Shown here: in pieces, positions 5,595 to 32,130 of the stretch | Layout of the letters: each line of letters opens with the position of its first letter | How positions within the stretch are numbered: position 1 is the first letter of the stretch | Origin: Terrimicrobiaceae bacterium | GTDB lineage: Bacteria; Verrucomicrobiota; Verrucomicrobiia; Chthoniobacterales; Terrimicrobiaceae | Direction: 5' to 3' | Assembly (NCBI GenBank): GCA_021463905.1 | Contig: JAJTZA010000052.1 | Span: forward strand, 1 to 32,130 | Length of the DNA stretch: 32,130 bases | The notes under the pieces: model-generated | Database searches by the model: none | The model's input: the letters and a program-made list of their open reading frames with translations, nothing else | Told to the model about the DNA's origin: nothing | Translations under genes and position numbers: made by a program

Positions 5595-5612
5595 CACCCC
5601 ACCCGCGCACGC

Positions 5613-5641
5613 TTGTCATAAACCCATAAATCGGGTATTCT
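5613..5641 (+). promoter_or_regulatory. Candidate sigma-70-type promoter for the glycosyltransferase operon
   Basis: In the short gap after the methyltransferase gene, TTGTCA (5613-5618; 5 of 6 to TTGACA) is followed after exactly 17 bases by TATTCT (5636-5641; 4 of 6 to TATAAT). Transcription would start near 5648, ahead of the ligase gene. This is a consensus match only; read-through from the methyltransferase gene is equally possible. Confidence 0.35.
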
Positions 5642-5727
5642 GGGACGCGTGAAAACGGCTCTCTTGGAAAGCTTTGAAGGACTACAGGGGGGAGGATGGG
5701 TTTTCATTCACCCTTAAAAAAACAATC

Positions 5728-9337: not shown

Positions 9338-9767
9338 AGCCCTCTGGAGGTATTCGCGAGCATTGCACCGTCGGGGGTGGCGGCGGGCGGCGCGGCTGTT
9401 GAAGACCCTCAACTGGGCACTCAACAAGTGCCTGCTTCCAGCCGAAGCCGAGGTGGGGGAGGGGGTGATCCTCGAGCACTACGCGCTGGGTATCGTCATG
9501 CACCCGCAGGTGACTCTCGGCGACCGCTGCCGTATTTATCACCACGTCACCCTGGCCTCGGAATCTCCTATTGGCTCCGGACACCGCATCATCCTTGAAG
9601 AAGGAGTGACCATTGGTGCTCACAGTATCGTCATCGGGCGCGGCAACAGAACCCTGCGCATCGGTAAGGGCAGCATCCTGGGCGCGGGGTCGGTCCTCAC
9701 CAAAGACATTCCCGCCGGAGAAGTCTGGGCGGGCAACCCGGCCCGCAAAATCCGCGATCTCCCATGA
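9318..9767 (+). CDS. Hexapeptide-repeat acyltransferase, serine O-acetyltransferase-like
   Basis: This is a 149-residue left-handed beta-helix acyltransferase. Hexapeptide-type steps include IVMHPQVTLGDRCRIYHHVT, LEEGVTIGAHSIVIGRG and RIGKGSILGAGSVLTKDIPA, ending with WAGNPARKI. This is the layout of CysE-like serine acetyltransferases and of EPS acetyltransferases. The His pair in YHHVTLA corresponds to the catalytic His region. In this operon it more likely O-acetylates a sugar of the exopolysaccharide than makes O-acetylserine, since it lacks the long N-terminal domain of true CysE. I chose ATG 9318 over an upstream in-frame ATG (9285) because GGAGG lies about 7 bases ahead. It overlaps the upstream gene by 20 bases and the downstream gene by ATGA. 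Confidence 0.85.
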   Translation: MRPRLPEALWRYSRALHRRGWRRAARLLKTLNWALNKCLLPAEAEVGEGVILEHYALGIVMHPQVTLGDRCRIYHHVTLASESPIGSGHRIILEEGVTIGAHSIVIGRGNRTLRIGKGSILGAGSVLTKDIPAGEVWAGNPARKIRDLP

Positions 9768-14020: not shown

Positions 14021-15398
14021 TGTGGACGGCGGTCCGCCAGAGGATGCGGAGGTCCAGGACCGGCTCCCACTTTTCGATGTAATCAATGTCGTATTCGACG
14101 CGGCGCACAATCGCTTCCGGGGTGGCCGTCTCGCCCCGGAAGCCATGAATCTGAGCCAGTCCGGTGATGCCTGGTTTGACGAATCCGCGGATCGGGTAGT
14201 TGGACATGCGCTCGGAAAAAAGCGTGTCATGTTCAATCATGTGGGGGCGGGGGCCGACCACGCTCATGTGCCCGGAGAGGACATTCAGAAATTGCGGGAA
14301 CTCATCCAGGCTGAATCTCCGGAAGAACCGTCCTGCCGGATAGACGCGGGTGTCACCTGCGCTGGCCTGCCGCGCTGAGTCGCTGTTGCCCACATACATG
14401 GTCCGAAATTTGAGAATCACAAAGCGGCGGTTATCGAGGCCGGAGCGGGTCTGACGGAAAAAGAGCGGCCCCGGAGCCTGCAGCCGCTGGAAAAACCAGA
14501 CCACCACCATCAGAAGCGGAAGGACAAAACAGACCACCGGAAGACTCACCACAATGTCCAACGTCCGCTTGATCGCCCGGTTGATCACGTTCTGCAGCGG
14601 CTCCTGCCGCAGCTCGATCAAATCAATGTTGTCACACTGAAAATACGAAAGTCGGCGCTGGAGGAAAATATCCAGATCATTGACGAGAGAGACGCGGCAG
14701 CCGTGTGCCTCGGCCATGCGGAGCCAGTCGCCCAGCCGTCGGCGATCCCTCGGGCTGCCAATAAAAAACAGGTTACCGATTTCCGGATGCTGGTGGAGGA
14801 TTTCGCTGAGGTTGTCCGGTGCTCCGAGGCAGGGGAGGCCTCGTGGAAGCTGATCCGGCGTCGCATCCGTGGCGATCCCCACAGCCTCGAATCCAAAAAG
14901 ACGGGATTTTTCGAGCAGGGGGCTGACGTATGCCAGCTCCGCCGGATTCCCCACCAGGAGCATCTTTTGCGCATTCCTCCCCAGAAAAAACCGCAGAATG
15001 TCGAGAGCCAAAAACCGCGAGAACAAGACGAGCGCGAGATAGACCGCCGGAAAATACAGAACGAGGAAGAAGCGGGAAACCCGGGTGTCCCACAGGAGAG
15101 CCAGGAAGACGAGGCTCAGTGCGCCGGAGAACAGGAGGTGGGGCCAGACAAAGCGGTGGCTTTCCATGATGCCCGAGGAGACCGAGAGGATGTCGTATTG
15201 CTTGGATCGGAGGAACGAGAGGATCAGCGTCAGGATGAGAAAAATGTATAAGGACAAATAGTGCGGCATCATTCCGGGCAGAATGACGGACGTTCCCATC
15301 CGCAGCCCGATGTAACACCCCCAAAACACCAGGGTAATCACAATCGCGGCGCACACTTGGAACGCCTGAACCAAACCGAGTTCGCGATGCTGAAACAT
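13992..15398 (-). CDS. Undecaprenyl-phosphate sugar phosphotransferase (WcaJ/WbaP type)
   Basis: This 468-residue polyprenyl-phosphate hexose-1-phosphate transferase should start repeat-unit synthesis by moving a sugar-1-phosphate from a UDP-sugar to undecaprenyl phosphate at the inner membrane. The N-terminus has four membrane segments (about residues 11-32, 48-62, 86-102, 110-132). A CoA_binding_3-like Rossmann domain follows ([20 protein letters not shown] onward), then another hydrophobic segment (~281-303). The catalytic bacterial sugar transferase domain has KFRTM (330-334), the acidic pair in [14 protein letters not shown] (D365, E366), VVGPRPH (381-386) and KPGITGLAQ (408-416). Length and layout fit the WcaJ family. 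It is the last gene of the minus-strand export operon, 26 bases after the beta-barrel gene. The sugar (glucose, galactose or an amino sugar) is not determinable. Confidence 0.93.
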
Positions 15399-15424: not shown

Positions 15425-17050
15425 TCAGAACCGCAGGTTAATGGCAAGACCGATGGTGTTGCTCGTGTAGGAATCTTCATCTGAGGCGGCAAAGCGCTTT
15501 TGCAGGGTATCAAAAAAAATCAACTCGACCGTCCGGGTGAGGGCATAGGAAAGCGTGAGTCCTCCCTCGAGATAATCCAGGTTGCTGCGCTCCATCTCAC
15601 CATCCCCCCATTGGTCAATATGACCCACCTCCGCGCGCAGAGTCAGATCGGTCTTTTCATAAAATCGAACGAGCAATTTTGCGGCCACGGCCGTACGCAT
15701 TTGGAGGGAGACACTCTCGAAGGCGTCGGTGTTGATTTCCCGGTACACGCGCAGCAACGCGCCGAGGCGGTGGGTGAGGTGGTAGGCGGCGGTGACGTCA
15801 AAGATTGGGGCGTTGAAGGCGTTCAAGTCCGCCACGCCGGGTTGGAGCTGCCGCGTTTGATAGCCGAGCCGTCCCATGAACCGCCAATGGTAATCGGGGC
15901 GGTAGAGCCACTGGAGTCCCAGCGACTGATAGTTCTGGGTTCCGATGGGTGCCCCGGATTGGCCATATTCGATAAACGCGCCGCCGGCCAGGCGGGAGCT
16001 GAATTGATAATCCCAGGCCAGGACGCCCCGATGGTCGGTTCGCTGGCCGCCGGGGTCATTGTCACTCACCGATCCAAGATACGAAAGGAGACCCTCGGAT
16101 TTTGCGGTGAAGGGGTAGCGGGCGAAGGCGTTGGCTGTGAAGGTTTGTTGCTTGGCGATGCCGGTGCTGTTGACGAAGACGCCGGTCTGCGTCTGGTATC
16201 CGAAGTCCGCGCCGATCTGGAGTTTGGTGAAGGGGTAGCGCAGGGTGAGGTTGATGTTTTCGTTGGCCGCGTTCATCTCCTTGTAGCGGTTGTAAAACAC
16301 GAACGAGGGCGAGTAGCTCAGCGCGGCCAGTCCGCGCGTCCCGGTCTCCACGTAGAGACGCGGGTTGAAGGTGTAGAAGACATCGGATTGCTGTCCGGTG
16401 GAGGCTCCGAACACATTGTCGTTGAAAGCGACGGATTGGAAAAAATCCATGGCATAGCGAAAGGGGCCCGCCGTTCGCAGATTCCTGCGCTGCTTGGCAA
16501 AAACCAGGCTCGGCTCCGGGATGTCCGGCATGATCAGACTCACCTCGCTCTCCCGCATCATAAATTGCTCGGTCGTCTTGCCGATCTCGTAAAACACCGG
16601 ATGGCCGCGATCCAGGAGGATGATCTCCCGTTCCTGCGTCACAGGATAATCAATCACTCCCAGGGGCGGAACCTCGTTGAAAGGATTGGCGAGAAGAAAC
16701 ACCGCCTCCGGATCGTAGTCGCCAGGAGTGGACTCCGGCAGGGGAACCCCGGTTCGCGTCACCGTCTCGAAAAGCGATTGCGCATCGTTGCGGATCGTCG
16801 AATCAATCGGAAATCCCTTGGGCAGCGCACTCAGCGGGTCCTCGGGCGGCAGCATCGGAAAATCCAGCCGGTACGCCGACGGATCCACCGTATCAAAGAC
16901 GCGCGCATCTCCCGAGCTGAGGTTTTCCAGGGTGGTGGATTCTGTCCGGACGGATGCGAGGGGCAGAACCGTGACGGCAGCCAGCATGAGGGTGGCCCAG
17001 CGGCGTGGGTTTCCAGGACGCGCCCTCATTGAACCGTGGCACCATCTCAC
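15425..17050 (-). CDS. Outer-membrane beta-barrel protein of the EPS export operon
   Basis: This ~541-residue protein has an N-terminal signal sequence (RRWATLMLAAVTVLPLASV) and then a ~170-residue region without a recognised fold. From about residue 200 to the end there are many short alternating strands with aromatic girdles (for example YSPSFVFYNRYKEM, LQIGADFGYQTQTGVF, WRFMGRLGYQTRQL). The chain ends INLRF, with the terminal Phe typical of outer-membrane barrel proteins. Lying between the Wzc-like and WcaJ-type genes, it may be the outer-membrane exit for the polysaccharide or an associated porin; this is an inference. The GTG at 17050 overlaps the stop of the preceding gene (GTGA). ATG 17029 would give a shorter, equally plausible signal peptide. 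I recognise no enzymatic motif. Confidence 0.8.
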   Translation of the reverse strand: MRWCHGSMRARPGNPRRWATLMLAAVTVLPLASVRTESTTLENLSSGDARVFDTVDPSAYRLDFPMLPPEDPLSALPKGFPIDSTIRNDAQSLFETVTRTGVPLPESTPGDYDPEAVFLLANPFNEVPPLGVIDYPVTQEREIILLDRGHPVFYEIGKTTEQFMMRESEVSLIMPDIPEPSLVFAKQRRNLRTAGPFRYAMDFFQSVAFNDNVFGASTGQQSDVFYTFNPRLYVETGTRGLAALSYSPSFVFYNRYKEMNAANENINLTLRYPFTKLQIGADFGYQTQTGVFVNSTGIAKQQTFTANAFARYPFTAKSEGLLSYLGSVSDNDPGGQRTDHRGVLAWDYQFSSRLAGGAFIEYGQSGAPIGTQNYQSLGLQWLYRPDYHWRFMGRLGYQTRQLQPGVADLNAFNAPIFDVTAAYHLTHRLGALLRVYREINTDAFESVSLQMRTAVAAKLLVRFYEKTDLTLRAEVGHIDQWGDGEMERSNLDYLEGGLTLSYALTRTVELIFFDTLQKRFAASDEDSYTSNTIGLAINLRF

Positions 17051-19674
17051 GGCGCCTGCCGCCAGATTTCGATAATTTCCAGCAGGAGGCTGCGGGCATG
17101 ATCCGGTGCCACGCCGGTTCGCTCGATGGTTCCTTTCAGATCGTCAAAAATCTGCCGCCTCCGGCGTCCTGCCTCGGACTCCTCATCGTCCATCGGAGTG
17201 CCGATTTCGTTGCGACAGGTCTTCAGGGCGAGGAGCAGCCTGGCGCGACCCTCCTCGCGCGTCAGACCGGACTTCTGGAGGAGATCGAGCACTGCGCTGA
17301 ATTTTTCACGGCGGCGCGATCCTGCATCCGTCAGGTCGCGGCGGCCCGGAGCCTTGAGGGGAAGCGTCGCACCGCACGCGCAGATTCTCTCACGGTGTGG
17401 GAGCTGGTATTCGGGGTCGCTCATGCGCGTGGTGGGCGCATGACCGTTCGGGAGGGTGGTCAATGACAGAAAGTCCTCGATGGTTTCGTATTTGCGTCCG
17501 CAGGAAGGGCAGAGGACGGGGAATCCCGCGCCCTCGCCAGCAGGACGCACGCGGGAGGAGAGCGGCTTCTGCGACAGTGGCGCGTCCTTCACCGCCGCGC
17601 TCCGGGCGAGGTTAAAGACCAGCCCGGTGACTTTCACTCCGGAGCGCGTGAGGAGATCCGCCGCCCGCCGCGCTGCGGACTTGGTGGTGTGACGGCTGTG
17701 AATGACGAGACAGACGGTCGGAAAATTTTTGGCAAAGCAGAGGGTATCGCTCAGCGTGGCGACCGAGGCGGAGTCCACGATGATCCGGTCGTAGAGCGCT
17801 CCGGCACCGTCAAGCAGGGCGTGGAAGCGCTGACGCGAGAGCACCTCGACGGGATGAGCGGAGGGGGTGCCTGCCGTGATGACGTCGAGATTGGGAATGC
17901 CGGAGGAGAAAATGACACTCGAGAGGGGTGCGCGCCCCAGCAAAAAATCCGAGAGCCCCGGGTGTCCCTGATCCACAAATCCACGCTCCTCGATGGCCGG
18001 GTCGCGCAGGTTGGCGTCAATGAGCAAGGCGCGGAAATTGTTTTGCGCCAAGGCGATGGCCAGATTGATGGTGCTGAAGGTGACGCCCGTCCAGCTCGAA
18101 GCTCCTGTGATGAGGATAAACTTTTCGTCTCCGGACACGGACTGGAGGGCCGTGCGCAAGTTGCGGAAGGCTTCGGCAGTCTCGGAGCGTGGAGCATGGA
18201 GGGAGGCACCCTCCGTCCAGCGCAGCACGGGATCCCGGGGGTGGTCATTGCTGGGAATCGAGGCCAGAACCGGCAGACCCAGAAGTTTCTCCGCCGCTTC
18301 GGGGGTCTTGATGCTCGTGTCCAACTGCGTGATCAACGCGATGATTGCCAGCCCCAACAGCAACCCCGCGAAGACGCTGGAGAGCAGAACCTGGCGGGGT
18401 GCCACGGAAACAGGAACCGCATACTGCGCCAATGAGGAAATTTGCAGGAGCACCGGCTGGTTGCTGTTTTGAGAAAGCTCCTCGCTCAGCCGCTTCAGCG
18501 TCGCCTCGTAGGCGAGTTGATCCACATCAATCTGCCCCTTGAGGACCTGCGAAAATACGGCCATGTCCCGGATATCAAAAACCTTCTGCTGTTGCTCGGC
18601 GGTTTCTTTGAGGAGTTCCTCCTCGCTCCGTCGCGCGGCGGCCAGCGCCGCTTCCACGCCGCGGGCAATGTCCTGCACTCGGATGCGAAACGAGTCCTCG
18701 AGGTCCTTCAGCTCGGTGGAGGCCTGAACCACAAAGGGATGGCCGCTGCGGTAGCGCTGCTCGAGTTTGGCGAGGTTGCCCCTCAGCTCATTGATGCGCG
18801 CCGCCAGGGTGGCGACTCCCGGTGACTGCTGGACTATGGAGAGACTGGCCAGCTTCTCGGTGTCGCCGTCACACTTTTCCACTTCGCTGTAATCGCTTTC
18901 CACCTTGAGCCGCTCGCTGCGTGCCTGGGTCGCACGGCGATCCAGGTCGCGCAGTTTTTCCGAAGCCAGATCACTTTCCTGATCCACCGAGACATTGCCC
19001 CGGGCGCGGGTGTAGTCGTTCAGCTTCTTCTTGGACTCGGTCAGCTTCGCATTGAGCTTTTCGGCCTCGCCTTTGAGCCGCTCGACATTGGCCTGGATCG
19101 CGGCAGCAAGCCGCTCGCGGTCAATGGCAATTCCCTCTTCAGCCAGCGCATTGGCCACTTCGGTGGCAATCAGCGGATCCTGATGATCAAAGGTGATCGC
19201 AATCAGGATCGTGTCGGGAATCAGAGCCGCCTTGCTGTTTTGAAAGAGCAACCCCGTCACTTCATCCTCCGTGCCACTCAAGCGCCCCGACCCCAGAAAG
19301 CCCGCGCGCGCTGTCAGATTCAGTTTGGCCACCACACGCCGCATCAGCTCAGGGGTGAGAAATGTCCGCTCGACGGTCTTGAGATCCTCCGGAAGCAGCG
19401 GGCTTCCTGCCGCCGGACTCCCGCCGGTCAGGGAGACCCCCGTTGTCGAGGGACGGCGCTCCGCCTTGATTTCGGACTGCGCCTGATAAATGGGCCGGAT
19501 AAACCGCGTGATGATCTTTCCGCACACAAACCCAAAAACGAGCGTCAGCGCGACAATCCAGTAGAGCCGCCGCAGGGTGTCCAAAAACGCCTTGAAATCA
19601 AATGAGCCAGCCCCTGCCGGATTTTGCGCGGCTTGGGAAAATGGATCGTCCAGCGCAGGATCAGGAGGATTCAT
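17047..19674 (-). CDS. Wzc-like chain-length/tyrosine-kinase protein with degenerate P-loop and new C-terminal domain
   Basis: This 875-residue inner-membrane protein has a Wzz domain: membrane segment ~39-56, periplasmic coiled coils ~185-265 and ~290-400, second membrane segment ~428-449. A cytoplasmic domain resembling the BY-kinase/ParA-like fold follows (~490-690). Such proteins control chain length and export with the Wza channel. The P-loop is abnormal: ITGASSWTGVTFS (521-533) has Val531 where the invariant Lys should be. Walker A' keeps D553 but has Asn555 (LLIDANLRDP), and the Walker B position keeps D634 (IIVDSA). ATP binding is therefore doubtful. Instead of a Tyr-rich tail there is a possible zinc-binding CPSC...CAC segment (C722, C725, C765, C767) and two similar helical units (~787-825 and ~837-875). 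The start overlaps the export lipoprotein stop (TAATG). Confidence 0.9.
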   Translation of the reverse strand: MNPPDPALDDPFSQAAQNPAGAGSFDFKAFLDTLRRLYWIVALTLVFGFVCGKIITRFIRPIYQAQSEIKAERRPSTTGVSLTGGSPAAGSPLLPEDLKTVERTFLTPELMRRVVAKLNLTARAGFLGSGRLSGTEDEVTGLLFQNSKAALIPDTILIAITFDHQDPLIATEVANALAEEGIAIDRERLAAAIQANVERLKGEAEKLNAKLTESKKKLNDYTRARGNVSVDQESDLASEKLRDLDRRATQARSERLKVESDYSEVEKCDGDTEKLASLSIVQQSPGVATLAARINELRGNLAKLEQRYRSGHPFVVQASTELKDLEDSFRIRVQDIARGVEAALAAARRSEEELLKETAEQQQKVFDIRDMAVFSQVLKGQIDVDQLAYEATLKRLSEELSQNSNQPVLLQISSLAQYAVPVSVAPRQVLLSSVFAGLLLGLAIIALITQLDTSIKTPEAAEKLLGLPVLASIPSNDHPRDPVLRWTEGASLHAPRSETAEAFRNLRTALQSVSGDEKFILITGASSWTGVTFSTINLAIALAQNNFRALLIDANLRDPAIEERGFVDQGHPGLSDFLLGRAPLSSVIFSSGIPNLDVITAGTPSAHPVEVLSRQRFHALLDGAGALYDRIIVDSASVATLSDTLCFAKNFPTVCLVIHSRHTTKSAARRAADLLTRSGVKVTGLVFNLARSAAVKDAPLSQKPLSSRVRPAGEGAGFPVLCPSCGRKYETIEDFLSLTTLPNGHAPTTRMSDPEYQLPHRERICACGATLPLKAPGRRDLTDAGSRRREKFSAVLDLLQKSGLTREEGRARLLLALKTCRNEIGTPMDDEESEAGRRRRQIFDDLKGTIERTGVAPDHARSLLLEIIEIWRQAP

Positions 19675-20710: not shown

Positions 20711-21937
20711 TCATTGCCCGGGCCGCGGCGCGATCCGGGCGCCCTCGTTCACGGTGTCCGGAGGATGGAGAATCACCCGCTGCCCTTCGCTCAGGCCGCT
20801 TTTGACTTCCGCAAAGATGCCATTGCTGTGCCCAATCTCGACCGGGACGGCCTTCGCCCGACCGCTCTCGTCCAGAAACGTCATCCACGCATTCCCGCGG
20901 CGGAACAGCGCGCCGGTCGGAACTTGCAAAATTCCCGCGCCGGTCCAGGTGACGATCCGCGCCTCCACCCGATAGCGGTCCCCGAGCCGCCCTTCGGGGA
21001 GATCGGTAAAATTGACGCGGACCTTCACGCGTTGTTCCTCCACGCCGAGGGCGGAGACCTTGAGGAAACCTCCGGGCTCGACGAGGACGACCCGTCCGTG
21101 CAGCGGTTCGCCGCCGCCCCATTGTTCGATGGAGACTTCCGCGCCGGGGCGGACGTTCACCGCGTCGCTGGAGAGTAGTTCGATTTCTGCTTCGAGGTCC
21201 TTCGGGTCGCCGACCTCCAGGAGCGGAAGACCCGGAGTGACCGTCCGTGCGCTCTCCTCGAACACATTGAGCACGAACCCGGAAACCGGCGAACGGATTT
21301 CCAGGGGCTGCCCGGTTTCGGCGGGTGCGCCGGTCGCCTGAAGGAGTGCCGCCCGGGCCTGCTCCAGCTCGAATTCCGCGACCTTCAGGGCAAAGCGCGC
21401 GGAACCAAGCTGGTTGTTCAGCATGTCCACGCGGTTCTTGGCGGTGTCAAATTCCCGGACGGCAATGGCGCCTTTCGTGCGGAGCTGGTCGGCGCGGGCG
21501 AGTTCCTTGCGGGCCAGCTCCAATTCGGAGGAGGCGCTCTCCACCTGTTCGACCCGCTGCATGCGGGCCGCTTCGGCGGACCGCACCGCCGCTTCCGCCT
21601 GCGCCTTTGCGCGCGGATCCAGAAAGCTGGACGGCTGCGCCTGGATCACGGCCAGCACGGTCTTGCCCGCCTCGACCGGATCCCCCGCGCGCACCGGCAC
21701 GCGGCGCAAATACCCGGCAACCGGCGGCGAAACCACATACCGGCTGCGAATGCGCGTCTTGCCTTCCTCCAGGACGGAAACCACAAGCGGTCCGCGCAGG
21801 ACCTCCGCCGTATCCACCACGACCGGCTTCGGCAGAAGACCGAGAACGAGCAGCCCAAGGACAAGCGCCCCCGACAGCGGGAGCAGAATTTTGCGCCATA
21901 CTCCCTTGCCGGAGCGTTTGGTGGGTGAGGGTTTCAT
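20711..21937 (-). CDS. HlyD/MacA-type periplasmic adaptor protein
   Basis: This 408-residue membrane fusion protein has a cytoplasmic basic N-terminus and one membrane anchor (about residues 17-35). The first half of a lipoyl-like domain follows (PPVAGYLRRVPVRAGDPVEA), then an alpha-helical coiled-coil hairpin (~105-200, rich in Ala, Glu, Arg and Leu), the second lipoyl half (IRSPVSGFVLNVFEESARTV), a beta-barrel domain and a C-terminal membrane-proximal part (PTGALFRRGN...). It would bridge the FtsX-type permease in the inner membrane to an outer-membrane channel. No TolC-like gene is in the window. The start codon directly abuts the permease stop (TAAATG), so it is the third gene of an ATPase-permease-adaptor operon of the MacAB/DevBCA kind. 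The substrate is unknown. Confidence 0.92.
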   Translation of the reverse strand: MKPSPTKRSGKGVWRKILLPLSGALVLGLLVLGLLPKPVVVDTAEVLRGPLVVSVLEEGKTRIRSRYVVSPPVAGYLRRVPVRAGDPVEAGKTVLAVIQAQPSSFLDPRAKAQAEAAVRSAEAARMQRVEQVESASSELELARKELARADQLRTKGAIAVREFDTAKNRVDMLNNQLGSARFALKVAEFELEQARAALLQATGAPAETGQPLEIRSPVSGFVLNVFEESARTVTPGLPLLEVGDPKDLEAEIELLSSDAVNVRPGAEVSIEQWGGGEPLHGRVVLVEPGGFLKVSALGVEEQRVKVRVNFTDLPEGRLGDRYRVEARIVTWTGAGILQVPTGALFRRGNAWMTFLDESGRAKAVPVEIGHSNGIFAEVKSGLSEGQRVILHPPDTVNEGARIAPRPGQ

Positions 21938-24304
21938 TTATTCGCGGGCTTTGAGGACTTCGAGCAGATCGAGATGTTTGATGCGGCGGCTGACCACGTA
22001 AAACGAAAAACTGGAGGAAAGCAGTACGATAAGAACGGCTGTGGCGTAGGATTTTTGCGTGAGCACGAGGGGAAGGCGGACCGTTTCGGTGCTGGCGGAC
22101 ACGACGATGAAATTTGCCAGTTGCCCGCCAATCCAGAGCCCGACCGGGATGGCCACCAGGGTGAGCATGAGCAACTCGCCGATCAGCACGCCGGCCACCT
22201 CGCGGTTGGTGAATCCCACCACCCGCAGCGTGGCGAGATCCCGTCCCCGCTCCGACAGGGCGATGCGCGCGCTGTTGTACACCACCCCGAAGGCGACAAT
22301 GATGGAAAAGGTAAAATAGATGCTCTGGATCAGGTTGATCGAGTCCGCTGTGGTCTTGCGAAAACTCTCCTGCAATGCCGCAGTCACGCTCACCCCGCCG
22401 ATCCGGGGCACTTCTTTGACGGCATCCAAAAATTCCACCCATCGGTTCCGGTCCACGGAAACATGGGCGCCACTCACCGTGGAGCCTTCCTGCATGAGAC
22501 GGCGCAGCGCATCAATGTCCATGTACGCCTGCAACCCGGAATAGTCCGTGATGAGCCCGGCCAGCGGTGCCGTGTGCACCGGGCGGCGGCCTTCCTGCAC
22601 CTCCATCTCAAGCGCATCGCCAGGGTGCGCCCCAAGCATTTCCGCGAGCTTCTTTGAGATCAACAGTCCGTTCCGGGGAATCGAAAGCGGACGGCCCTGT
22701 GCATCGAGCGCCCGGTTGAGCAACGTGCCCGGCGGCACGCCGGTGATTGCAAGGCGGTGGCTCCGGTGCCCGTACCGCAGCCGCACCGGAACGCTGCGGA
22801 ATGGCTCCGCATGGATCACGCCGGGAAGGTGCCGGAGACTGTCGAATGCGGGGGCCGAACTGGGTTCGATCAGGCTCACCGTGGCATCCTGCCGCTGCGC
22901 TTGCGTCCATTGGAAATCGAGAAGAAAGGAAATGCCGTCGCGCATCGCCCCCGGCACGATCGGAATGCCGACCGCCAGGGCCAGCCCCAGCGTCGTGAAG
23001 AACGCTTGCCAGGGTTTGCGTTCGAGGTTGCGCAGGGCCATGCGCATGGAGGGACTGAAGAAATTCTGCACGCCGAGGCGTTCCAGGAAGGACGGCTTGA
23101 ATTCCGCCGGAGGTTCCGGGCGCATGGCTTCGGCGGGGGGCAGGCGCACCGCCTGCCGGACAGCTCCGATCACGCCAAGAAACGACGCGGCGGAGCTGAT
23201 GGCGAAAGCCAGCCCAATCGCGCCGTAATCCAGATGGAGCGTCAGTTCGGGGAAGCGGAAGAATTTGTGGTAAAGATGCACGATCGTGGCGCCCAGTTTC
23301 GCTCCGCCCAGTCCCCCGGCCACCAGCCCGATGGCGACGATCACCAGGGCAAATTTCACATAGTGGCTGCCGATCTGTGCGCCCGAATAGCCGAACGCCT
23401 TGAGTTGGGCGATCTGTTCGCGCTGCAGGCGGATCACCCGCGCGAGTACCGCGCTTGTCATGAACGTCGCAATGCCGAGAAACACGATGGGAAACGCCAC
23501 GGACAGCCCGTTGAGAATGGCAATCTCGTCGTCGAGTTCCTTGGCGGAGGGATGGTCATGGCGGTCGAAGGCAATGAGCCCGCCATAGGGTTCGAGCAGG
23601 CGGTCGAGTTCGGCCATCACAGGTGCGGTGTCCGCTCCGGGAGCGACATCAATGACGACACTATTGAACGCGCCATCGAGGTCGTAGGCCGCCGCCAGAT
23701 CGCGTTCATTCATCCAGAACACACCGAAGCGTTTGTTGTCCGGCAGCGCCTGCCCCGGACGGGTCTCAAACACATACTCCGGCGAGAGCGCAATGCCGAC
23801 GATCTCCAGGGTTTCCTTTCCCCCGCGCAGAATCACCTCCACGGTGTCGCCCGGACGAAATCCATGCGCGTCCGCAAACGCTTCCCCCATGAGCACCTCC
23901 CGGGCTTTGCCCGGCTCCGGATACCGCCCCGCGCGCAAATAGAGCAGGTTCATCTGCATCGGACGGTCTTCGGGAAGAGACAGAATCGTGCCGTCCGCGG
24001 GCTCGGCAAGGCCGGGCAGATCCATGCGGACGCTTCCCTTCACCCGGGTGTCCACGGCGGCCACGGAGGGGATCCTTTCCAGGCGCTCCCGCAGAGAGTT
24101 CGGGGCGCGTTTCAGGTCGCAGAAGACATCGGCAAAACGGTGTTCTTCGTAGTAGTGCACGCGTGTGGTGTCGAGGGACAGAATCAGGCTGCGCGCCATG
24201 ATCATCATGGCGAGCCCGCACGCCATCACCAGGCCGACCGCCAGCATCTGGCCCTTCATTTTTCCGACATCGCGGAGAAGCTTGCGGTCAAGCGCTCTCA
24301 TCAC
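21938..24304 (-). CDS. ABC transporter permease with two FtsX domains
   Basis: This 788-residue membrane protein has the duplicated FtsX layout. Membrane segments are visible near residues 19-40, 268-290, 317-343, 361-383, 433-451, 657-680, 705-730 and 752-774. Two large periplasmic regions lie after the first and fifth segments. FtsX domains are at ~265-390 (with [20 protein letters not shown] as the coupling helix) and ~655-780 (with [20 protein letters not shown]). Eight segments with two extracytoplasmic domains fit the long LolCE/MacB-related permeases that extract or export lipids, peptides or lipoproteins rather than import solutes. It overlaps the ATPase gene by ATGA and abuts the adaptor gene. 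The substrate cannot be predicted from sequence. Confidence 0.93.
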
Positions 24305-25011
24305 CAGTGCAGGGAGCGCACCGGACGCCGCTGTTCATTGCGTGCGATGTGGGAGATTTTTCCGTCGGAAAGATGGATCACCCGGTCAGCCATCTCGGCC
24401 AGCACCGCGTTGTGCGTGATGAGGACGGTGAGCGTTTGCAGGTCGCGGTTCACCTTCTCGATGGCCTCCAGCACGGTGATGCCGGTGTTGACATCCAGCG
24501 CGCCGGTCGGTTCGTCGCAGAGGAGCACTTCGGGACGCTTGGCAATGGCCCGCGCGATGGCGACGCGTTGTTGTTGGCCGCCGGACATCTGGGACGGAAA
24601 ATGGTCCATGCGATCCCCGAGATCCACGAGGCGCAGGGCGTCCTCCGGCGCCATCGGATCCGGGGCAATCTCGGTGATCAGGGCCACATTCTCCCGCGCG
24701 GTCAGACTGGGGATCAGATTGTAAAACTGAAACACAAAGCCCACCGAATCGCGGCGGAAGGTGGTGAGTGCCTCCTCGTCGGCGTGGGTGAGGTCGCGTC
24801 CGCGATAGGTGAGCGTACCGGAGGTTGGCACATCGAGGCCGCCGAGATTGTTGAGGAGCGTGGATTTCCCGCTGCCGGACGCCCCCAGGAGGACGATGAG
24901 TTCTCCGGGATACAGGTCGAGGTCCACGCCGTCGAGCGCGCGGACCTCCACTTCGCCGCTCGCATACACCTTGGTGATACCCCGCCCGATAAAGAGAGGC
25001 GGGGCAATCAT
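24301..25011 (-). CDS. ABC transporter ATP-binding protein (MacB/LolD-like)
   Basis: This is an ~236-residue nucleotide-binding subunit with all motifs intact: Walker [10 protein letters not shown] (43-51), Q-loop [10 protein letters not shown] (Q95), signature [14 protein letters not shown] (142-155), Walker [13 protein letters not shown] (162-173) and H-loop ITHN (H200). These match the LolD/MacB subfamily, which powers FtsX-type permeases. I placed the start at ATG 25011, where [15 protein letters not shown] gives the usual short N-terminus and a G-rich stretch (GGCGGGGG) lies ahead. An in-frame ATG at 25080 would add 23 residues unlike family members. It is the first gene of the exporter operon and overlaps the permease start by ATGA. 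Confidence 0.93.
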
Positions 25012-25345
25012 TGAGCCCCCGCCTTTGGCCGGCCACCCCTCAGTCTGGTCATCCGGATCCTCACAGACGAAAAGGTTCATCCGTCCCGCTCAGGGAATGT
25101 CCGCCAAAGCAGGCGAGGAAGACCGGGGTGCAGACGTCATATCGGACTTTTGCGAAAAAATTTCGTCAAGTCAATCGGTATCAGCGATTCCGAAACGGAT
25201 TTGCCGAAGGCGCTAGGAAGGCAGGTAAAATCAGGAGATCAGGGACAGACCTTATTATCAGGAAATCTGCTTCCGTTTTTTGTCGCATTTCTACGTCTTA
25301 CTCCTCTCGTCGAGCTTCCATTCGTCTGGAAAAATCTTGCTTGGG
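25012..25345. other. Intergenic region between the ABC exporter operon and the CsgG/hydrolase operon
   Basis: This ~330 bp has no convincing gene. It lies downstream of the secreted hydrolase gene (ending at 25346) and upstream of the ABC exporter operon; both read leftward. It carries the right copy of the 22 bp direct repeat. It should hold the exporter promoter. A minus-strand TTGACG (25164-25169) overlaps an inverted repeat CGAAA-AAA-TTTCG (25153-25165), but no good -10 box lies 17 bases further, so I do not call a promoter. No terminator with a clear stem and U-run was found for the hydrolase operon. Confidence 0.5.
25246..25267 (+). repeat. 22 bp direct repeat, right copy
   Basis: This is identical to 20451-20472 and in the same orientation. 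Here it is not joined to a recognisable transposase fragment, although the minus-strand frame again reads ADFLIIRS through it. Together the two copies bracket the ABC exporter cassette. They could be remnants of the same mobile element family or recombination scars. Confidence 0.75.
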
Positions 25346-26278
25346 TCAATGTTTGTCTCGGGAGTCCGTTTGCAAATAAGTTCGCCATGCTTCCGCAGTT
25401 ACTGGCCCGGGCAGCCAGATTGCCTCTCGCTTGTTACCTTTGAATTCACTGGCTGACGCGACGTCTAGGGTGAGAGGATTTCCTAGCCAGCCGGATTGGA
25501 TCGAAAGCGTCCGGAGGTTGCTTGTTCCGCCACCGATTGTTTGAGCCGCCCCCAGTCTGAGGGGAATCACCTCCTTGAGGAAAGCTGCTGCCAATGGTTT
25601 TGTCTGACCGACGCTGTGTCCCTCGGTAGGATGCAGTGCTAAAGTCCATGCCGCCCGATCCTGTTTGGCATTCTCGTAATGTTCCATGGAGGTTTTTATC
25701 CAGTCTGGTTTATCCATTTTCCCCACACAGGCAAGGATGGGAATCTTGGTGCGCGATCTGTCCGTGCCACCATGTCCGTCCGGGCACTTCACGTTGACAA
25801 TAGCGATCACACGGCGAGGATTGCGCCTAGAAAAACTATTCGCCGTGTTACCTCCGGCACTTGATCCCCAGAAAGCGAGGGGTGACTGTGCGGCTTCTGG
25901 ATGTCCGTTGGCACGCCCCAACTCAGCTACGGCTTTTTCAATCGTGGCCGTTGTTTTTCCATCGGGGTCGAGTTGATACGATCCATCCGGCTTGAAAAGT
26001 CTCGCTCCGACCAAGGCAAAATCGTTCTCGACGGCGATTTCGCGCCAAAGCGAATCGTCCACTGCTGTGCGGGCATCACCGTTTCGTCCCGGAATGAACA
26101 ACAGAATGCCGCGAATTTTTGGGAGTCCCTCCGGTGCCCACCAACGAAATTGTGCTTCGTCAAGATACGGAGAAGGTACTTTGTCGGCTGACCATTCTGT
26201 GGAATTGGGCGATGGTTGCTGTGCCCAAGCCGCAGGTAAAAGGACAAGACACAATAGAAGAATAGGTTTGATTTTCAT
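25346..26278 (-). CDS. Secreted alpha/beta hydrolase (esterase-like)
   Basis: This 310-residue protein has a clear signal peptide (residues 1-19, ending AAWA). The mature part has an alpha/beta-hydrolase outline: RGILLFIPGRNGDAR as the oxyanion-side strand, the nucleophile elbow GSSAG (Ser140) followed by GNTANSF, a candidate acid at D189 (ACVGKMDKPD) and a candidate His at H221 (HPTEGHSVG). This is the pattern of PHB-depolymerase/feruloyl-esterase-like secreted esterases. About 75 residues follow the catalytic His and form no recognised domain. It probably acts in the periplasm or outside on ester-linked polymers; the substrate is unknown. It is the last gene of a five-gene coupled operon, and its ATG overlaps the stop of the 1341-residue gene (ATGA). 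Confidence 0.82.
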   Translation of the reverse strand: MKIKPILLLCLVLLPAAWAQQPSPNSTEWSADKVPSPYLDEAQFRWWAPEGLPKIRGILLFIPGRNGDARTAVDDSLWREIAVENDFALVGARLFKPDGSYQLDPDGKTTATIEKAVAELGRANGHPEAAQSPLAFWGSSAGGNTANSFSRRNPRRVIAIVNVKCPDGHGGTDRSRTKIPILACVGKMDKPDWIKTSMEHYENAKQDRAAWTLALHPTEGHSVGQTKPLAAAFLKEVIPLRLGAAQTIGGGTSNLRTLSIQSGWLGNPLTLDVASASEFKGNKREAIWLPGPVTAEAWRTYLQTDSRDKH

Positions 26279-29200
26279 GGATTCGTAGGTTTCAGGTGAT
26301 TGTGAAGAAATGCTTCGGCCAGCGATTGTTCGCTCGGAGACGGTCTGTAGAATGTGGAGTCGAGAAGGTGAAAGTCCACATTCGCACCGAATCCATCGAG
26401 CACCGTATGAAAAATTTCCGCGTTGTAGCGGCGACCACTGAAAGAAGCTCCATGGTCGTCATTGGCCCCCGCCGTAAGCAAGACAGGCATTCCTTTATAA
26501 ACCGAGGTGGGCTGCAAACCGATCTCCTGATCCTGCCACGGAAATGAGGCTCCGGCATGTAAGGAAAGCGAAGCCACGAGTTCCGGCTTCCATCGGGCGA
26601 AACGCGCAGCGCACTGAGCACCCGCACTACGTCCATACAAATGGAGCTTTTCCGCCTTCACCGCATGTCGCGAGCGGATTTGCGCAATCGCTTCGAGCAT
26701 GGCATCGCCGGACCAGAGCTGAGGAAAATGATACGGTGCGCAGGGATGATCCGCCCTCCATACGGTGTGATTCTGAAAAAATTGCGGGACGACCAAAACG
26801 AGATTGTGCGCGTCGGCAAAAGTGCTCCAATCCGAACTCTCCTCCAGTAACTCCAAGCCGCCATCATTGAACGCCGGAAGCATAATCATGATGGAAGAGT
26901 CCGCATTGATGATGGGTGGCAGACGATAAAACACCGTGACTTCGGCGTTCTCGAGCTGAGGGGTTGGAATTCGCAGGGCGAACGTCCGTTCCGGAAGCTT
27001 GGCGGAATCGGGATCGAAACGCAGTTCTTCCAGGAGGCGAACAGCAAGTGAGCGCAAGTTTTCGCGTTGACCGACAACATTCAGAAGTTCTCGACGGAAA
27101 TTCCGAGGCATTCGCAGCATCAACGAAATCTCAAGATTAGCTGTTTTGTCGAGAACCTCTTGCAGAAGCCGAATGGCGGCAGCCTTGTTGCGGGCCCGAA
27201 TTTTCAAACGGGCCAGATGAAACAATGCCGAAGCCTGCAATGCCTGATGGATGCTATCAACGCTTGTGATGCCGGGTGGCCCTTTCACCACCAACTCGAA
27301 CAATTGTTCCGCTTCAGCATAACGCCACCCCCACATGAAAAGAATGCCAGCGTCCATGACCATAGCACGTTCGTCGTCCGACAAGGCCCCGCTGCCATAG
27401 GTGCGCATGATATCGGGAAAAAATGGCAACAAGAGTTGTGTGGCTATTTCTCGGTTGGACATTGAATCGTCCAAAACCCAATTGCTCTGCTCCCACCAGT
27501 TGCGGATGGAAGGTATCTCAGCAACGAAAGCTTCCTGCGCATGCTCGCGCAGCACCCGTAAAAACGCCGGAATATCCCGCATGAAGTTCGGCGGGCCGGT
27601 TAATTGATCCGCTCCCTGTCTGCGAATTTCCTCCAACGTCACATCACGCCAGTCCAATTGATACAATCCAAACGGACGCGGCGTGCGATCAGGCACTCCA
27701 ATCCGCTTGACAGCCCGGGCAGACGCTTCGGCAAGCTGCCGATGGAAGGCTGAAAATTCCTCCGCGCTCAAGTTGTGCGCCGGAGCACCCATAGCCGGCA
27801 CCAACCAATGAATCGGCGCGTCCACGACACTGAACTGCTCTGCGTTGCGGACACGATCAAGCCAGTGGCACAATCCATCCACAGCAAACCGGATCAACTT
27901 CCGACTGTATTGCCTCCAAGCAGGATAATCTCCCATGTGAGGATGTGGCGTGCCATCGGGATGACCGAATTCGTGAATGCACATCCATGCTGCCCAACTT
28001 GCCATCGAAAAGCTTCCTGCGAATCGCTGCATCCATTCCGGATCCATGGTTTTTCGTCGCGCACTTCTTCCACCAATGGCCAAAGCCGCCCGGGATTCCA
28101 GAGCAATTTCTTCAGGAGTCAAAAAATCGAGCTTCCGAAAATCCTCCACACGCCACGACTCGGCATGCACGATCTGGATTCTGCCATCCGCATCAATTTC
28201 CATCCGGAACGGGCGGGGAGTGACTTGTTTGGGATCAAGCACCATCCCGGACTCTTCCGAGGCTGCGCGTCCAAGCCATTCCATGCTCTCCGTCATCGCC
28301 TTGAGCTTATCCGCCTGCGGAAGACTCGGCGCGTCGGAAAGCATGCGAGTGGTTTGACGGGCTTCCTCCGCTACTTCCTGTGGAGTCAAAATCGCCTGCA
28401 TATCCGTAAGCCAAATAAAACGGGCCAACGCGGCGGACGGATGCCCTGCATCGTGCTCAAAGAACGCCTTCAAATCCGTCAATCCATCACGCTCTTCGCC
28501 GGTGAGATGGCGTCCGGCAGCCACGGCAGGCAGGAACTGTTGAATGTACTGCAACTCGACCCAAGGACGTTGCGGATCGTCGGCAGGCAACAAGCGTAGG
28601 AGCACCTGACGTTTGGCCGAGTCCAAGTAATCTCCGAGCAGACTCTCCGAGCCTGTGAGGCTTCCAAAACGTAACCCAATCACCAGAGGATGATTCGGTT
28701 CCTGCAAAAGCAGAGCCAGACCTGTTGCAAATCGCTCCGCTTGATCTTGGGAAGTTTTCAGCGTGCGCAGCAGATTGTCGGTAGCGGGAAGTTGCGCGGC
28801 CACCGGCTTGTCCACCTCTTCCTCTTGCGCCTTTTCACGCAATAAAAAGTTAAATGTGTTCGCAAGCTCCGCATCCGTTCGGGCATCTGTGGAGTCAATT
28901 CGCATCCGTTTTCGGGCAACAACCTTCCCCGATAGATCATTGGCGAGAATCCATTCGATTTCTTCACCATGCAGCCATCCCCTCAAGGTGAAACGCGTGG
29001 TGAATCCGTCGGCCGTTGACCAGCTCGATGCGGATCCTGGCGTTGCCGCCGCAAGATAATCCAACTCGTGCCCCAGTGCTGCCAGTGACTCCGGCAGTAA
29101 GAGATGCGATCCGGCCAATTGCCTGATGGCGGCCTTTTCCCAATGCCGTGCCACGCCGCGATCGCCTGTTGCTGCTGTCTGGACGCCCAAAAACGTAAGT

Positions 29201-30300
29201 CCATCGCGCGGGGTGATAGCTCCGTCTGCGGCAACTCCCCGCCCTTCCAAACCGGTTTCCAACCAGCGTTGCAGTGCCTTGGAAAATTCCGGCAATCCCA
29301 AAGCGTCGTAGCAACGCTGCTCCCACTGATAAGCCGCAACAAAGCGATGATTAGCCTCTCTTGCTCTCCGAAATTCCTGCAATGCCGGTAAGATTTGCCC
29401 CGAAGAATAGGCACTCACACCCCGATAGAACGGCAGGAGTGCTTCGATGCCCACACGCTGTTGGTAGGGCACCACTTTGCTGCCTTTGGCTCCTGCGATG
29501 AGCGGAAGCAGATTTTGCCAAAATACCTCGGAGTTTGCCATCGTCAGCCCCCATTGGAAAACAGCCAGAACAGAACCATCGGCAGAAAATATTTTTACCT
29601 CCACGGAATCCTTGTCTGTTCGTTCCACCGTCAGAATTTGGCCCGCTCCTGCAAATGCCGGTAAAACTTTCTCCATTTTCTGGAAACCGCCTTGAACGGA
29701 AAAGCGCTCGTCGAGCACCTGCCAGGCGAGGGAACGATCCAAGATGGGAATGCTGTATCTACCGAGAAATTCTCGAATCAATTGACCGACGGCCCGAGCC
29801 TCCGGATCGTTAGACTCGAGAATCACCACTTTTGTTCCTTCCACGTCGAGCACCGGGGAAATCCCCGCCAACAACCGAAGGCTCTCCTTCTGCAGTTTAC
29901 CGAACGGAAGGCGGATGGCGCGTTTCAATTCCCGACCATCGAGCGCATTCGCCAAGATCAATGTCCATGCGGTGGAGTCGGGTTCTTGCTCCAAAAGAAC
30001 GAACAGATCGGCAGTTGAGCCAAGCCTCATAGCAAGCGGACGTAACGATGCGGCAGAAAGAATCTGCTCAGCTTGCAATGCCGAAAAATTGGCCCGTTCC
30101 AGCACTTCCACCCCTTGAACTCGTGACAACGCTGTCTCGATCAGTGCCGTTGCATCCGGGGGGCCAAAGATGGCAACACGCCGCGTTTGTTTTTCGCTTA
30201 GGTTCTGGTTGCCGACCGCGTCTTTCGTCGGTTCGCCGAAAGCGGAAAATACCAGCAGAATTCCCGCAACGATTGCGGCGACAGGGGCGGCGAATCTCAT
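26275..30300 (-). CDS. Large secreted multidomain protein: CsgG-like N-terminus, HExxHxxGxxH motif, C-terminal alpha/beta hydrolase
   Basis: This is a 1341-residue protein with a signal sequence (~1-22). Residues ~40-130 resemble a CsgG-type fold (RVAIFGPPDATALIETALSR, then VLERANFSALQAEQIL). A second similar stretch starts at ~155 (TKVVILESNDPEARAVGQLI, DRSLAWQVLDERF). A TPR-like segment (~280-345) and a long helical part follow. Codons 776-786 read HEFGHPDGTPH, an exact HExxHxxGxxH zinc-binding pattern of metzincins, preceded by a hydrophobic helix; Pro781 inside it is unusual. The C-terminus has an alpha/beta-hydrolase core with LHLYGRSAGAQCAARF (nucleophile Ser1225) and LLTAGANDDHGASF. 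I know no family with this order. It overlaps both neighbours by ATGA. The role is unknown; a cell-surface processing or degradation function is an inference. Confidence 0.85.
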   Translation of the reverse strand: MRFAAPVAAIVAGILLVFSAFGEPTKDAVGNQNLSEKQTRRVAIFGPPDATALIETALSRVQGVEVLERANFSALQAEQILSAASLRPLAMRLGSTADLFVLLEQEPDSTAWTLILANALDGRELKRAIRLPFGKLQKESLRLLAGISPVLDVEGTKVVILESNDPEARAVGQLIREFLGRYSIPILDRSLAWQVLDERFSVQGGFQKMEKVLPAFAGAGQILTVERTDKDSVEVKIFSADGSVLAVFQWGLTMANSEVFWQNLLPLIAGAKGSKVVPYQQRVGIEALLPFYRGVSAYSSGQILPALQEFRRAREANHRFVAAYQWEQRCYDALGLPEFSKALQRWLETGLEGRGVAADGAITPRDGLTFLGVQTAATGDRGVARHWEKAAIRQLAGSHLLLPESLAALGHELDYLAAATPGSASSWSTADGFTTRFTLRGWLHGEEIEWILANDLSGKVVARKRMRIDSTDARTDAELANTFNFLLREKAQEEEVDKPVAAQLPATDNLLRTLKTSQDQAERFATGLALLLQEPNHPLVIGLRFGSLTGSESLLGDYLDSAKRQVLLRLLPADDPQRPWVELQYIQQFLPAVAAGRHLTGEERDGLTDLKAFFEHDAGHPSAALARFIWLTDMQAILTPQEVAEEARQTTRMLSDAPSLPQADKLKAMTESMEWLGRAASEESGMVLDPKQVTPRPFRMEIDADGRIQIVHAESWRVEDFRKLDFLTPEEIALESRAALAIGGRSARRKTMDPEWMQRFAGSFSMASWAAWMCIHEFGHPDGTPHPHMGDYPAWRQYSRKLIRFAVDGLCHWLDRVRNAEQFSVVDAPIHWLVPAMGAPAHNLSAEEFSAFHRQLAEASARAVKRIGVPDRTPRPFGLYQLDWRDVTLEEIRRQGADQLTGPPNFMRDIPAFLRVLREHAQEAFVAEIPSIRNWWEQSNWVLDDSMSNREIATQLLLPFFPDIMRTYGSGALSDDERAMVMDAGILFMWGWRYAEAEQLFELVVKGPPGITSVDSIHQALQASALFHLARLKIRARNKAAAIRLLQEVLDKTANLEISLMLRMPRNFRRELLNVVGQRENLRSLAVRLLEELRFDPDSAKLPERTFALRIPTPQLENAEVTVFYRLPPIINADSSIMIMLPAFNDGGLELLEESSDWSTFADAHNLVLVVPQFFQNHTVWRADHPCAPYHFPQLWSGDAMLEAIAQIRSRHAVKAEKLHLYGRSAGAQCAARFARWKPELVASLSLHAGASFPWQDQEIGLQPTSVYKGMPVLLTAGANDDHGASFSGRRYNAEIFHTVLDGFGANVDFHLLDSTFYRPSPSEQSLAEAFLHNHLKPTNP

Positions 30301-31214
30301 TCGGGCCGGAGCTTGGGTGCGATGCGTTCGAGCAGGGAGAGAGATGCTTCCTGCAGAGCTGTTTTGCCGGCGACGGCTTCAGCCGTGTCAACCGCAGTTG
30401 CTGTTTCCGAATCCACCACCAACACCGATCCATTCATGGACTCAACGCGAATCTCCACCCGGGCGCGTGCGGACAAAAGCTGCCCTCGTCGTGCTCCGGG
30501 CTGACTGAAAGCCTCCCCAACAATGCGCAGACTTGGCATCGAAGCCACCCCTCTGGGATCGAAGATTTTGAATCCAAGCTCCATCAGTACTTTTTCAAAT
30601 TCCGTTTGCGCCGCCGGATCAATGACAGGGCGTCCCAAATCCTGCTCCGTAATGCGCACGGAAACGGTGCGCCCGCCTCCTTCCACGAGCTTGCGCAAAG
30701 CAGCCACCCGCTCCGCACGCGTGACAACCTTCGGAACAAAGGCAGTGTGATTTTTTTCGATGAGGGCACTGATTTTATCCGCCAATTCCTGAGTGGGTTC
30801 GGCAAGACTTTTGCCAGCGGTTGCTGTTTCACCGAACACCCTCGATGTTTCCGTACTCATGACCTTGGCCACCAGCAGAGTATTGTCGGAGGTTGAAATA
30901 ACTCGTCCCATAATCATGGCCTTTGCGCCAAGAAGCTGTCCGACGCGAGCGGCGGATTCCGCATCGGTGAGGCCGGAAAGACCAATGGTTTGTTCGCTGA
31001 GAATTTTATCAATCTCGGTGCGCTCTACCAGCCGGAGCGAGGGATTATGTCCGAGAAGAACTCCAAGCCGTTCGGAAACTTCCACAGCGGCAGGTTGCAG
31101 GCGGACATCCGAGGTTTCAAAACCCAGAATGGCGACGGTCAGCGGCTGCGCGTCGGCTTTTAGTGACGCGGGTATCAGGGTGAAAATGGCAAGTAAGGTG
31201 ATAATAATCTTCAT
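30297..31214 (-). CDS. CsgG-like secreted protein
   Basis: This 305-residue protein has a signal peptide (1-~22). The first half matches the CsgG/HfaB pattern: LTVAILGFETSD, then LRLVERTEIDKILSEQTIGL, then ESAARVGQLLGAKAMIMGRV. CsgG proteins form outer-membrane secretion pores for curli, and more distant relatives occur in many secretion or envelope systems. The usual lipobox Cys after the signal peptide is not seen, so membrane anchoring is uncertain. The second half (RTVSVRITEQDLGRPVID, then SLRIVGEAFSQPGARRGQLL and AVDTAEAVAGKTALQEASLS) looks like a second domain often found in CsgG/LPP20-like proteins. It overlaps both neighbours by ATGA, so it is made together with the large CsgG-like/hydrolase protein. 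The function is inferred only at family level. Confidence 0.83.
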   Translation of the reverse strand: MKIIITLLAIFTLIPASLKADAQPLTVAILGFETSDVRLQPAAVEVSERLGVLLGHNPSLRLVERTEIDKILSEQTIGLSGLTDAESAARVGQLLGAKAMIMGRVISTSDNTLLVAKVMSTETSRVFGETATAGKSLAEPTQELADKISALIEKNHTAFVPKVVTRAERVAALRKLVEGGGRTVSVRITEQDLGRPVIDPAAQTEFEKVLMELGFKIFDPRGVASMPSLRIVGEAFSQPGARRGQLLSARARVEIRVESMNGSVLVVDSETATAVDTAEAVAGKTALQEASLSLLERIAPKLRPE

Positions 31215-31987
31215 GGTATGCTTTTGGTAAGAGATTCGGCGAGGTGAAGGAATTGAGCCTGGGCCAGCGGATCCTGCGCAAAATCATGGTGAATGGGGCG
31301 TTGTCCCCAAAGGATCAACTTTCCATTTTCCTGCGTTTCGAATCGCGACTGCCAACTGCGGTCGGGTGCTGCAAAAACCATAATCACTCGCGCCAGTCCG
31401 GACGTAATGAGGAAGTCCTCCTTGTCGGCGGCATCCACCACCAACATGCCATCGCGCCCATCGGCTCCTGGGGTATTCAAGTCAGCCTCCACAAACTGGA
31501 TGTTTAAGCCGCGCAAAAACTCACGCATACCGGGCAACTCTCCAGCCAGAGCAAGCGGAATCTTCGCCGCTGCCATCGCCTGCCATCGTCGAGTGAAGGC
31601 ATCTGGCGGAAAAAGCACCAATCGAATCACCTCCAGCGGTACAGATTTTTTTTCACTGCCTACGTTGAAAATCGCCCCGCGATAGGTTTCCGTTTTTTCC
31701 GAAGTTGGCAGATCCAGCGCAAAGCGTCCTTGCGTCAGAATAGGGTTTTTCTCAGGAGTACGATCGTAAGAAAAGGTGGATTTTCCGACAGGAACCGCAA
31801 GGGCATCTCCATCCAAAAGCCAAACAATCTCGACCTTCGGCATTGAGTCGGCCGGATGGCGGGCAAAAGTCGCCTCAACCGCTGGGACTTTATCACCGCC
31901 AAAGCGGGCCACCACGGGCGGAATTCCCTGCCCGACCGAACCGTCCAAGGCCAGCAGAATAACCAGTGTCGAAATAGTAATGCTCAT
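31211..31987 (-). CDS. Secreted protein of unknown function (258 aa)
   Basis: This 258-residue protein has an N-terminal signal-like sequence (SITISTLVILLALDGSVGQG). The first half (to ~115) looks beta-rich (VEIVWLLDGDALAVPVGKST, LTQGRFALDLPTSEKTETYR). The second half resembles an alpha/beta fold with alternating strands and helices (KIPLALAGELPGMREFLRGL, DGMLVVDAADKEDFLITSGL, ARVIMVFAAPD, NGKLILWGQRPI). It may be a two-domain periplasmic protein. I recognise no family or catalytic motif. It precedes the CsgG-like gene with an ATGA overlap, and its own ATG overlaps the stop of a further upstream gene, so it belongs to the same operon. Confidence 0.75.
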   Translation of the reverse strand: MSITISTLVILLALDGSVGQGIPPVVARFGGDKVPAVEATFARHPADSMPKVEIVWLLDGDALAVPVGKSTFSYDRTPEKNPILTQGRFALDLPTSEKTETYRGAIFNVGSEKKSVPLEVIRLVLFPPDAFTRRWQAMAAAKIPLALAGELPGMREFLRGLNIQFVEADLNTPGADGRDGMLVVDAADKEDFLITSGLARVIMVFAAPDRSWQSRFETQENGKLILWGQRPIHHDFAQDPLAQAQFLHLAESLTKSIP

Positions 31988-32130
31988 GTTCTATGAATAG
32001 TTCGGGCAATGGCATGGATGCCGGATTGCTGATTCACCAACCCTGATTCTCCGACCAGAATTACCTCGCCGGAGCCTGTGATGAGGGGGGTGACACAAAT
32101 CGAACCCCCGGCGATGTTCACACAAACCGA
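31984..32130 (-). CDS. C-terminal end of an unidentified protein, cut by the window edge
   Basis: A minus-strand frame is open from the right edge to a TGA at 31984-31986 (48 codons plus stop). It reads ...CVNIAGGSICVTPLITGSGE, VILVGESGLVNQQSGIHAIA and RTIHRT. Its stop overlaps the ATG of the next gene (ATGA), exactly like the other four junctions of this operon; that junction pattern is the main reason to call it a gene. The glycine- and hydrophobic-rich sequence suggests beta structure, but no family can be named from so short a piece. Confidence 0.5.
   Translation of the reverse strand, partial: SVCVNIAGGSICVTPLITGSGEVILVGESGLVNQQSGIHAIARTIHRT

Follow-up and report, generated by a model that had tools for sequence, protein, structure and literature searches.

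Does the block of five tightly packed genes at one end of a Terrimicrobiaceae contig encode an undescribed envelope or secretion system, as a preliminary description proposed, and what would its CsgG-like protein and the giant protein encoded next to it do there? The window, that is, the whole stretch of DNA analysed, is an entire contig of 32,130 bases from a 2.04 Mb genome that is 72% complete. ORF calling returned, at the positions first reported, four ORFs and one fragment, all on the minus strand:

31984..32130, minus strand: fragment (48 aa) assigned to ASF, an anti-sigma-like protein (ASF profile match and C-terminal alignment)
31211..31987, minus strand: G2, secreted protein of 258 aa (ORF calling)
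30297..31214, minus strand: CsgG-like protein of 305 aa (Pfam, AF2, Foldseek)
26275..30300, minus strand: giant protein of 1341 aa (AF2, Foldseek, relatives)
25346..26278, minus strand: EST, secreted alpha/beta hydrolase of 310 aa (motif alignment, synteny)

All four junctions read ATGA in the window sequence (4/4), as first described, and 4-nt overlaps also occur in relatives, between the ECF, ASF, G2 and CsgG genes of one genome (G196) and at the giant/EST junction of two others (G206 and G374). A hydrophobic signal-like segment is found in each of the four proteins with an N-terminus, in agreement with the signal peptides claimed for them (assessed by hydrophobicity only), and none of G2, the CsgG-like protein, the giant and EST carries a further strong transmembrane (TM) segment. 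The rest of the window holds other gene groups. At 4785-15398 lies a glycan cluster comprising an FkbM methyltransferase, an O-antigen ligase domain, two GT4 glycosyltransferases and a sugar transferase. At 20711-25080, on the operon's strand and 265 bases apart from it, a HlyD-type membrane fusion protein (Pfam) sits beside ORFs that by eye resemble an ABC permease (21938-24304) and an ABC ATPase (24301-25080). Two large overlapping ORF pairs (721/628 aa at 544-4592 and 541/875 aa at 15425-19674) matched no Pfam family at E 1e-5.

Because the window is the entire contig, the first gene, left as an 'unknown' in the preliminary description, is truncated at the contig end. Its 48-residue fragment matches an ASF-family profile built from relatives (26 bits) and aligns with the C-terminal positions of ASF, so that the gene is predicted to encode the C-terminus of a one-TM anti-sigma-like protein, an identity that had been missed. 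In relatives, the first gene of the operon encodes an ECF sigma factor; behind it come a small one-TM ASF, G2, the CsgG-like protein and, last, a large protein. The ECF proteins match Pfam sigma-70 regions 2 and 4, and the ASF gene lies directly behind the ECF gene and overlaps it. The ASF proteins have one strong TM segment with an N-terminal region ahead of it; they match none of the Pfam anti-sigma families, and we regard ASF as a putative anti-sigma factor. On this comparison, the window block appears to be the distal part of a longer, ECF-headed operon, and the DNA immediately past base 32130 is expected to encode the rest of ASF and the ECF sigma factor. As the ECF gene and promoter of the window copy fall beyond the contig end, what follows on regulation applies to this copy by analogy.

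How constant is this arrangement? Within the order, 11 of 213 genomes, one of them the source of the window, carry the CsgG-like family, as do 61 of 388 genomes of a Verrucomicrobiota sample; a scan of named genomes gave ~50 full-length relatives, nearly all from Verrucomicrobiota. The lineages are Chthoniobacterales/Spartobacteria, Limisphaerales/subdivision 3, Opitutaceae, Methylacidiphilaceae and Verrucomicrobiales. Neighbours were counted wherever a CsgG locus had 2.5 kb or more of upstream DNA (43 loci), and CsgG-domain loci from other phyla (n=26) served as controls. Same-strand upstream neighbours included an ECF gene in 26/43 and G2 in 36/43, versus 0/26 for both in the controls; under the thresholds used, no ECF was detected at 17 of the 43 loci. 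The gene order is thus conserved in related genomes, and the literature searched gives the set no name. G2 itself (34 aligned members adjoining CsgG) has no relative in Pfam, NCBIfam or PDB, and PDB sequence searches with the profiles of CsgG and of G2 brought no usable match; from its sequence pattern, G2 would be Ig-like in its N-terminal half and alpha/beta in its C-terminal half.

The large protein at the end of the order is the variable element. A tree of the CsgG family splits into two well supported clades, and window-type giants occur only in the window's clade, with replacements (4 label changes, a number as low in none of 500 shuffles). At other loci the large partner joins a CsgG-like domain to ankyrin, Sel1, TPR, propeller-like or EF-hand regions, and two Opitutaceae copies consist of ECF, ASF, G2 and CsgG with no large partner adjoining the core. 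Since the large partners vary or are absent, the constant core is ECF, ASF, G2 and the CsgG-like protein, and the Opitutaceae copies indicate that the giant is not essential to it. Some relatives carry tandem CsgG-like copies, up to six, as in a single operon at L058 (4425-10873). Individual loci show further variations: a 998-aa CsgG-like protein whose C-terminal half differs, with a distant CsgG-like gene behind it (L036 84-4170, genome G053); 1123-aa and 504-aa ORFs with giant-like pieces behind the CsgG-like gene, perhaps an intact or a decayed large partner (L031 9944-14929, genome G062); and, ahead of the operon, ORFs that by eye resemble an alpha-2-macroglobulin/PBP1C pair (L028 2-5955, genome G064).

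When the DNA ahead of the ECF genes of relatives was searched for bipartite words, one motif emerged: TCMAAGGA, 15 nt, CGTC, in most cases with TT or AT next to it. All family loci (1.09 Mb) were then scanned strictly (spacing 14-16), which returned 24 sites. Of these, 13 distinct sites precede the ECF gene (two further records are duplicates), 5 precede G2, mostly at loci where G2 is uncoupled from ASF, and 4 lie elsewhere. None was found in 0.47 Mb of control loci, and by our own estimate, which assumes equal base frequencies, chance would give ~3 in 1.09 Mb and ~0.02 in the upstream windows. An ECF-type promoter thus precedes its own gene in relatives, while the corresponding site of the window copy is off the contig; the window genome, 72% complete, contains no strict match. 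Across the phylum, matches were only moderately above a reversed-pattern control, and the motif is therefore too common outside the family loci to define a genome-wide regulon.

We then consider the CsgG-like protein, for which the preliminary description had pointed to the export or anchoring role usual for CsgG. The family assignment holds (Pfam PF03783, E=7.5e-8, 32.4 bits versus a cut-off of 20.8). Behind a Sec-type signal peptide the protein has two domains (25-155 and 183-302), both alpha/beta in the AF2 model (pLDDT 89.5, 50 sequences), for which Foldseek returned the CsgG pre-pore 4uv2 as best match, LpoB (4q6l/4q6z) and several LptE structures. On the model, domain 25-155 is assigned as LpoB/CsgG-like, and domain 183-302 would be LptE-like, judging by alignment length and topology. 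An outer-membrane ring, serving to export or anchor either the giant or fibres, would suit the Pfam score, the pre-pore match and perhaps the several tandem copies of some relatives. Against such a ring, strands 99-107, 112-120 and 126-133 of the model are linked by turns of 4-5 residues, so short that they leave no room for the TM hairpins of CsgG; a lipobox is absent from the window protein, and nearly all family members have signal peptides that lack one (even a loose match occurs in just 4 of 71 relatives); no CsgE, CsgF or fibre subunit was recognised in the operon; and the giant has a signal peptide of its own. Without lipobox or space for hairpins, a secretion pore is unsupported, and the CsgG pore was rejected as a candidate on the AF2 model (no hairpin insertion) and the lipobox survey; we hold the ring to be very unlikely. 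A role in export or anchoring is thus unsupported, whereas the proposal of an envelope operon that is coupled, conserved and apparently undescribed stands.

Three known proteins offer a comparison. The window protein resembles CsgG, the curli export lipoprotein, in its superfamily match and N-terminal domain fold, but differs in lacking a lipidation site, TM hairpins and curli genes and in having an LptE-like domain. It shares the N-terminal domain fold of LpoB, the peptidoglycan synthase activator (4q6z, TM-score by target 0.67). Of the features that mark an LpoB activator, the fold of the LpoB C-terminal domain is present and outer-membrane lipoprotein status is not (no lipobox); in the window protein the LpoB-like part is fused to a second domain, and the operon contains no PBP partner. 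LptE, the LPS transport lipoprotein, is matched over ~130-150 columns, probably by the C-terminal domain, but the window protein is two-domain and not lipidated, and no LptD is encoded in the operon. The best reading of the model is a periplasmic adaptor built of an LpoB/CsgG-like and an LptE-like domain, rather than a pore.

The giant had been described as starting with CsgG-like domains and carrying protease- and esterase-like parts. Behind its signal peptide, we find CsgG-like N-terminal domains, a helical solenoid (~507-1094) and an alpha/beta-hydrolase domain (~1106-1336). The CsgG-like start is supported by profile cross-matches within the family and by relatives, but the window protein itself gives no Pfam hit there. 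Full-length relatives come from G008, G064, G206, G196 and G374 (~23-29% identity), and at a further locus (L068) two separate genes encode the giant, the break falling at a natural domain boundary near residue 450. An AF2 model of residues 430-1341 (pLDDT 77.8) shows the solenoid followed by the hydrolase domain, and Foldseek confirmed alpha/beta hydrolases. Two sites bear on catalysis:

27943..27975, minus strand: HEFGHPDGTPH, residues 776-786 (alignment of seven sequences)
26341..26634, minus strand: active-site region of the giant's hydrolase domain (alignment with relatives and EST)

The metzincin motif noted earlier is literally there, and HExxHxxGxxH is a rare chance match in the shuffled giant (~9e-5), but it does not denote a conserved metalloprotease. 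The pattern occurs in 0/6 giant relatives (the nearest is HEVNHMFGKPF in G064), a Pfam M60 hit on the giant stays below cut-off, and the best 50 structure matches, made up of alpha/beta hydrolases and DPP-type proteins, include no metalloprotease fold. In the model, which around the motif is of moderate pLDDT and built from seven sequences, the string sits at the end of a solenoid helix and runs into a low-confidence loop. A conserved protease role was rejected on the alignment and the helical solenoid; HEFGHPDGTPH may be a lineage-specific metal site of the window giant.

The esterase part of the giant fares no better. In the window protein, the serine is kept in GRSAG (1223-1227), but the catalytic histidine is replaced by tyrosine in STFYRP (1315-1320); four relatives read GYGGG and one GYAPG at the serine site, and the Ser-Asp-His triad is whole only in the G008 giant, being broken in 6/7. 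EST, first described as a stand-alone secreted esterase, is an alpha/beta hydrolase whose triad (GSSAG, GKMDKP, EGHSVG) is intact in all five aligned operon copies. Cross-hits identify EST as a paralogue of the giant's C-terminal domain. Of the six operons with a full-length giant, five (window, G206, G064, G196 and G374) have EST directly behind the giant, and in G008 a polysaccharide deacetylase takes its place. Stand-alone proteins related to this domain, found elsewhere in the phylum, keep largely intact motifs, so active-site decay looks specific to the giant fusion. At L119-L140, such relatives often form tandem pairs, mostly with GYSAG and a retained histidine. EST and the giant's C-terminus share their fold with extracellular PHA depolymerases and poly(aspartic acid) hydrolases (NF050058, E=1e-8; 6ve6, E=2.3e-5), but the giant domain lacks the full triad and scores are far below family cut-offs. 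On these alignments, the hydrolase domain of the giant is predicted to be a degenerate, dead paralogue of EST, EST is likely the sole active enzyme among the operon products, and the giant is best explained as a periplasmic scaffold.

These findings also bear on the idea that a surface complex takes up or processes a polymer through protease and esterase activity. The secreted EST with its intact triad, the polysaccharide deacetylase of G008 and the glycan synthesis cluster elsewhere in the window speak for it. However, the metzincin motif is unconserved with no metalloprotease fold among the top matches, the giant's hydrolase domain is dead in 6/7, and no glycan cluster adjoins the operon in the order-level relatives read gene by gene. 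We found no conserved evidence for polymer uptake and regard such a complex as very unlikely. Two further candidates were discarded: a viral origin (viral contigs yielded no relative of the CsgG-like protein) and a defence system (no PADLOC match).

What, then, is the block? Gene order, the promoter motif in relatives, folds and catalytic residues are computational observations, and we consider it probable that together they denote an ECF/anti-sigma-controlled periplasmic envelope module of Verrucomicrobiota. ASF, which spans the membrane once and has a cytoplasmic N-terminus and a periplasmic C-terminal domain, presumably keeps the ECF sigma bound until an envelope signal frees it; the ECF would then direct transcription at TCMAAGGA-N15-CGTC(WT) before its own gene and, in split operons, also before G2. 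The products would leave the cytoplasm through Sec and work in the periplasm, together or as a complex, possibly in envelope homeostasis or remodelling. Such an operon recalls the sigmaE-RseA type, in which an ECF gene is followed by an overlapping one-TM gene, a bipartite promoter precedes the ECF gene and envelope proteins are encoded; it differs in that ASF matches no known anti-sigma family and that a G2/CsgG-like/giant set is undescribed with an ECF in the literature searched. Searches for ECF with CsgG and for CsgG in Verrucomicrobiota, the main ECF re-classification falling outside their scope, likewise found no description of the operon. The regulatory logic is known and the protein set apparently undescribed.

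A different job for the secreted proteins is compatible with the same regulation: the large partners, along with G2 and the CsgG-like protein, could form a sensor arm that binds a ligand or reports the envelope state to the periplasmic domain of ASF. The minimal Opitutaceae versions (ECF, ASF, G2 and CsgG, no large partner nearby), the varied repeat or binding domains of the partners (ankyrin, Sel1, TPR, propeller, EF-hand), which suit recognition, and the dead catalytic site of the giant point this way, whereas EST, an intact enzyme, suits an output. We give the sensor arm somewhat less than an even chance; the sequence data are consistent with both roles. In its broadest form, the envelope module may tentatively be seen as a Verrucomicrobiota-wide, modular and hitherto undescribed sense-and-respond system, with a conserved core of a new anti-sigma family, G2 and the LpoB/CsgG-LptE-like adaptor, to which one or another large periplasmic partner, of the propeller, EF-hand, ankyrin or pseudo-hydrolase type, is attached.

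Soil and water harbour Verrucomicrobiota in abundance, but the regulation of their envelope has been little studied. The operon described here is conserved, has a promoter signature of its own and occurs in about one sixth of the sampled genomes of the phylum; it offers a sigma/anti-sigma pair and secreted partners that are directly testable, and it shows that a CsgG annotation in Verrucomicrobiota need not mean a secretion pore.
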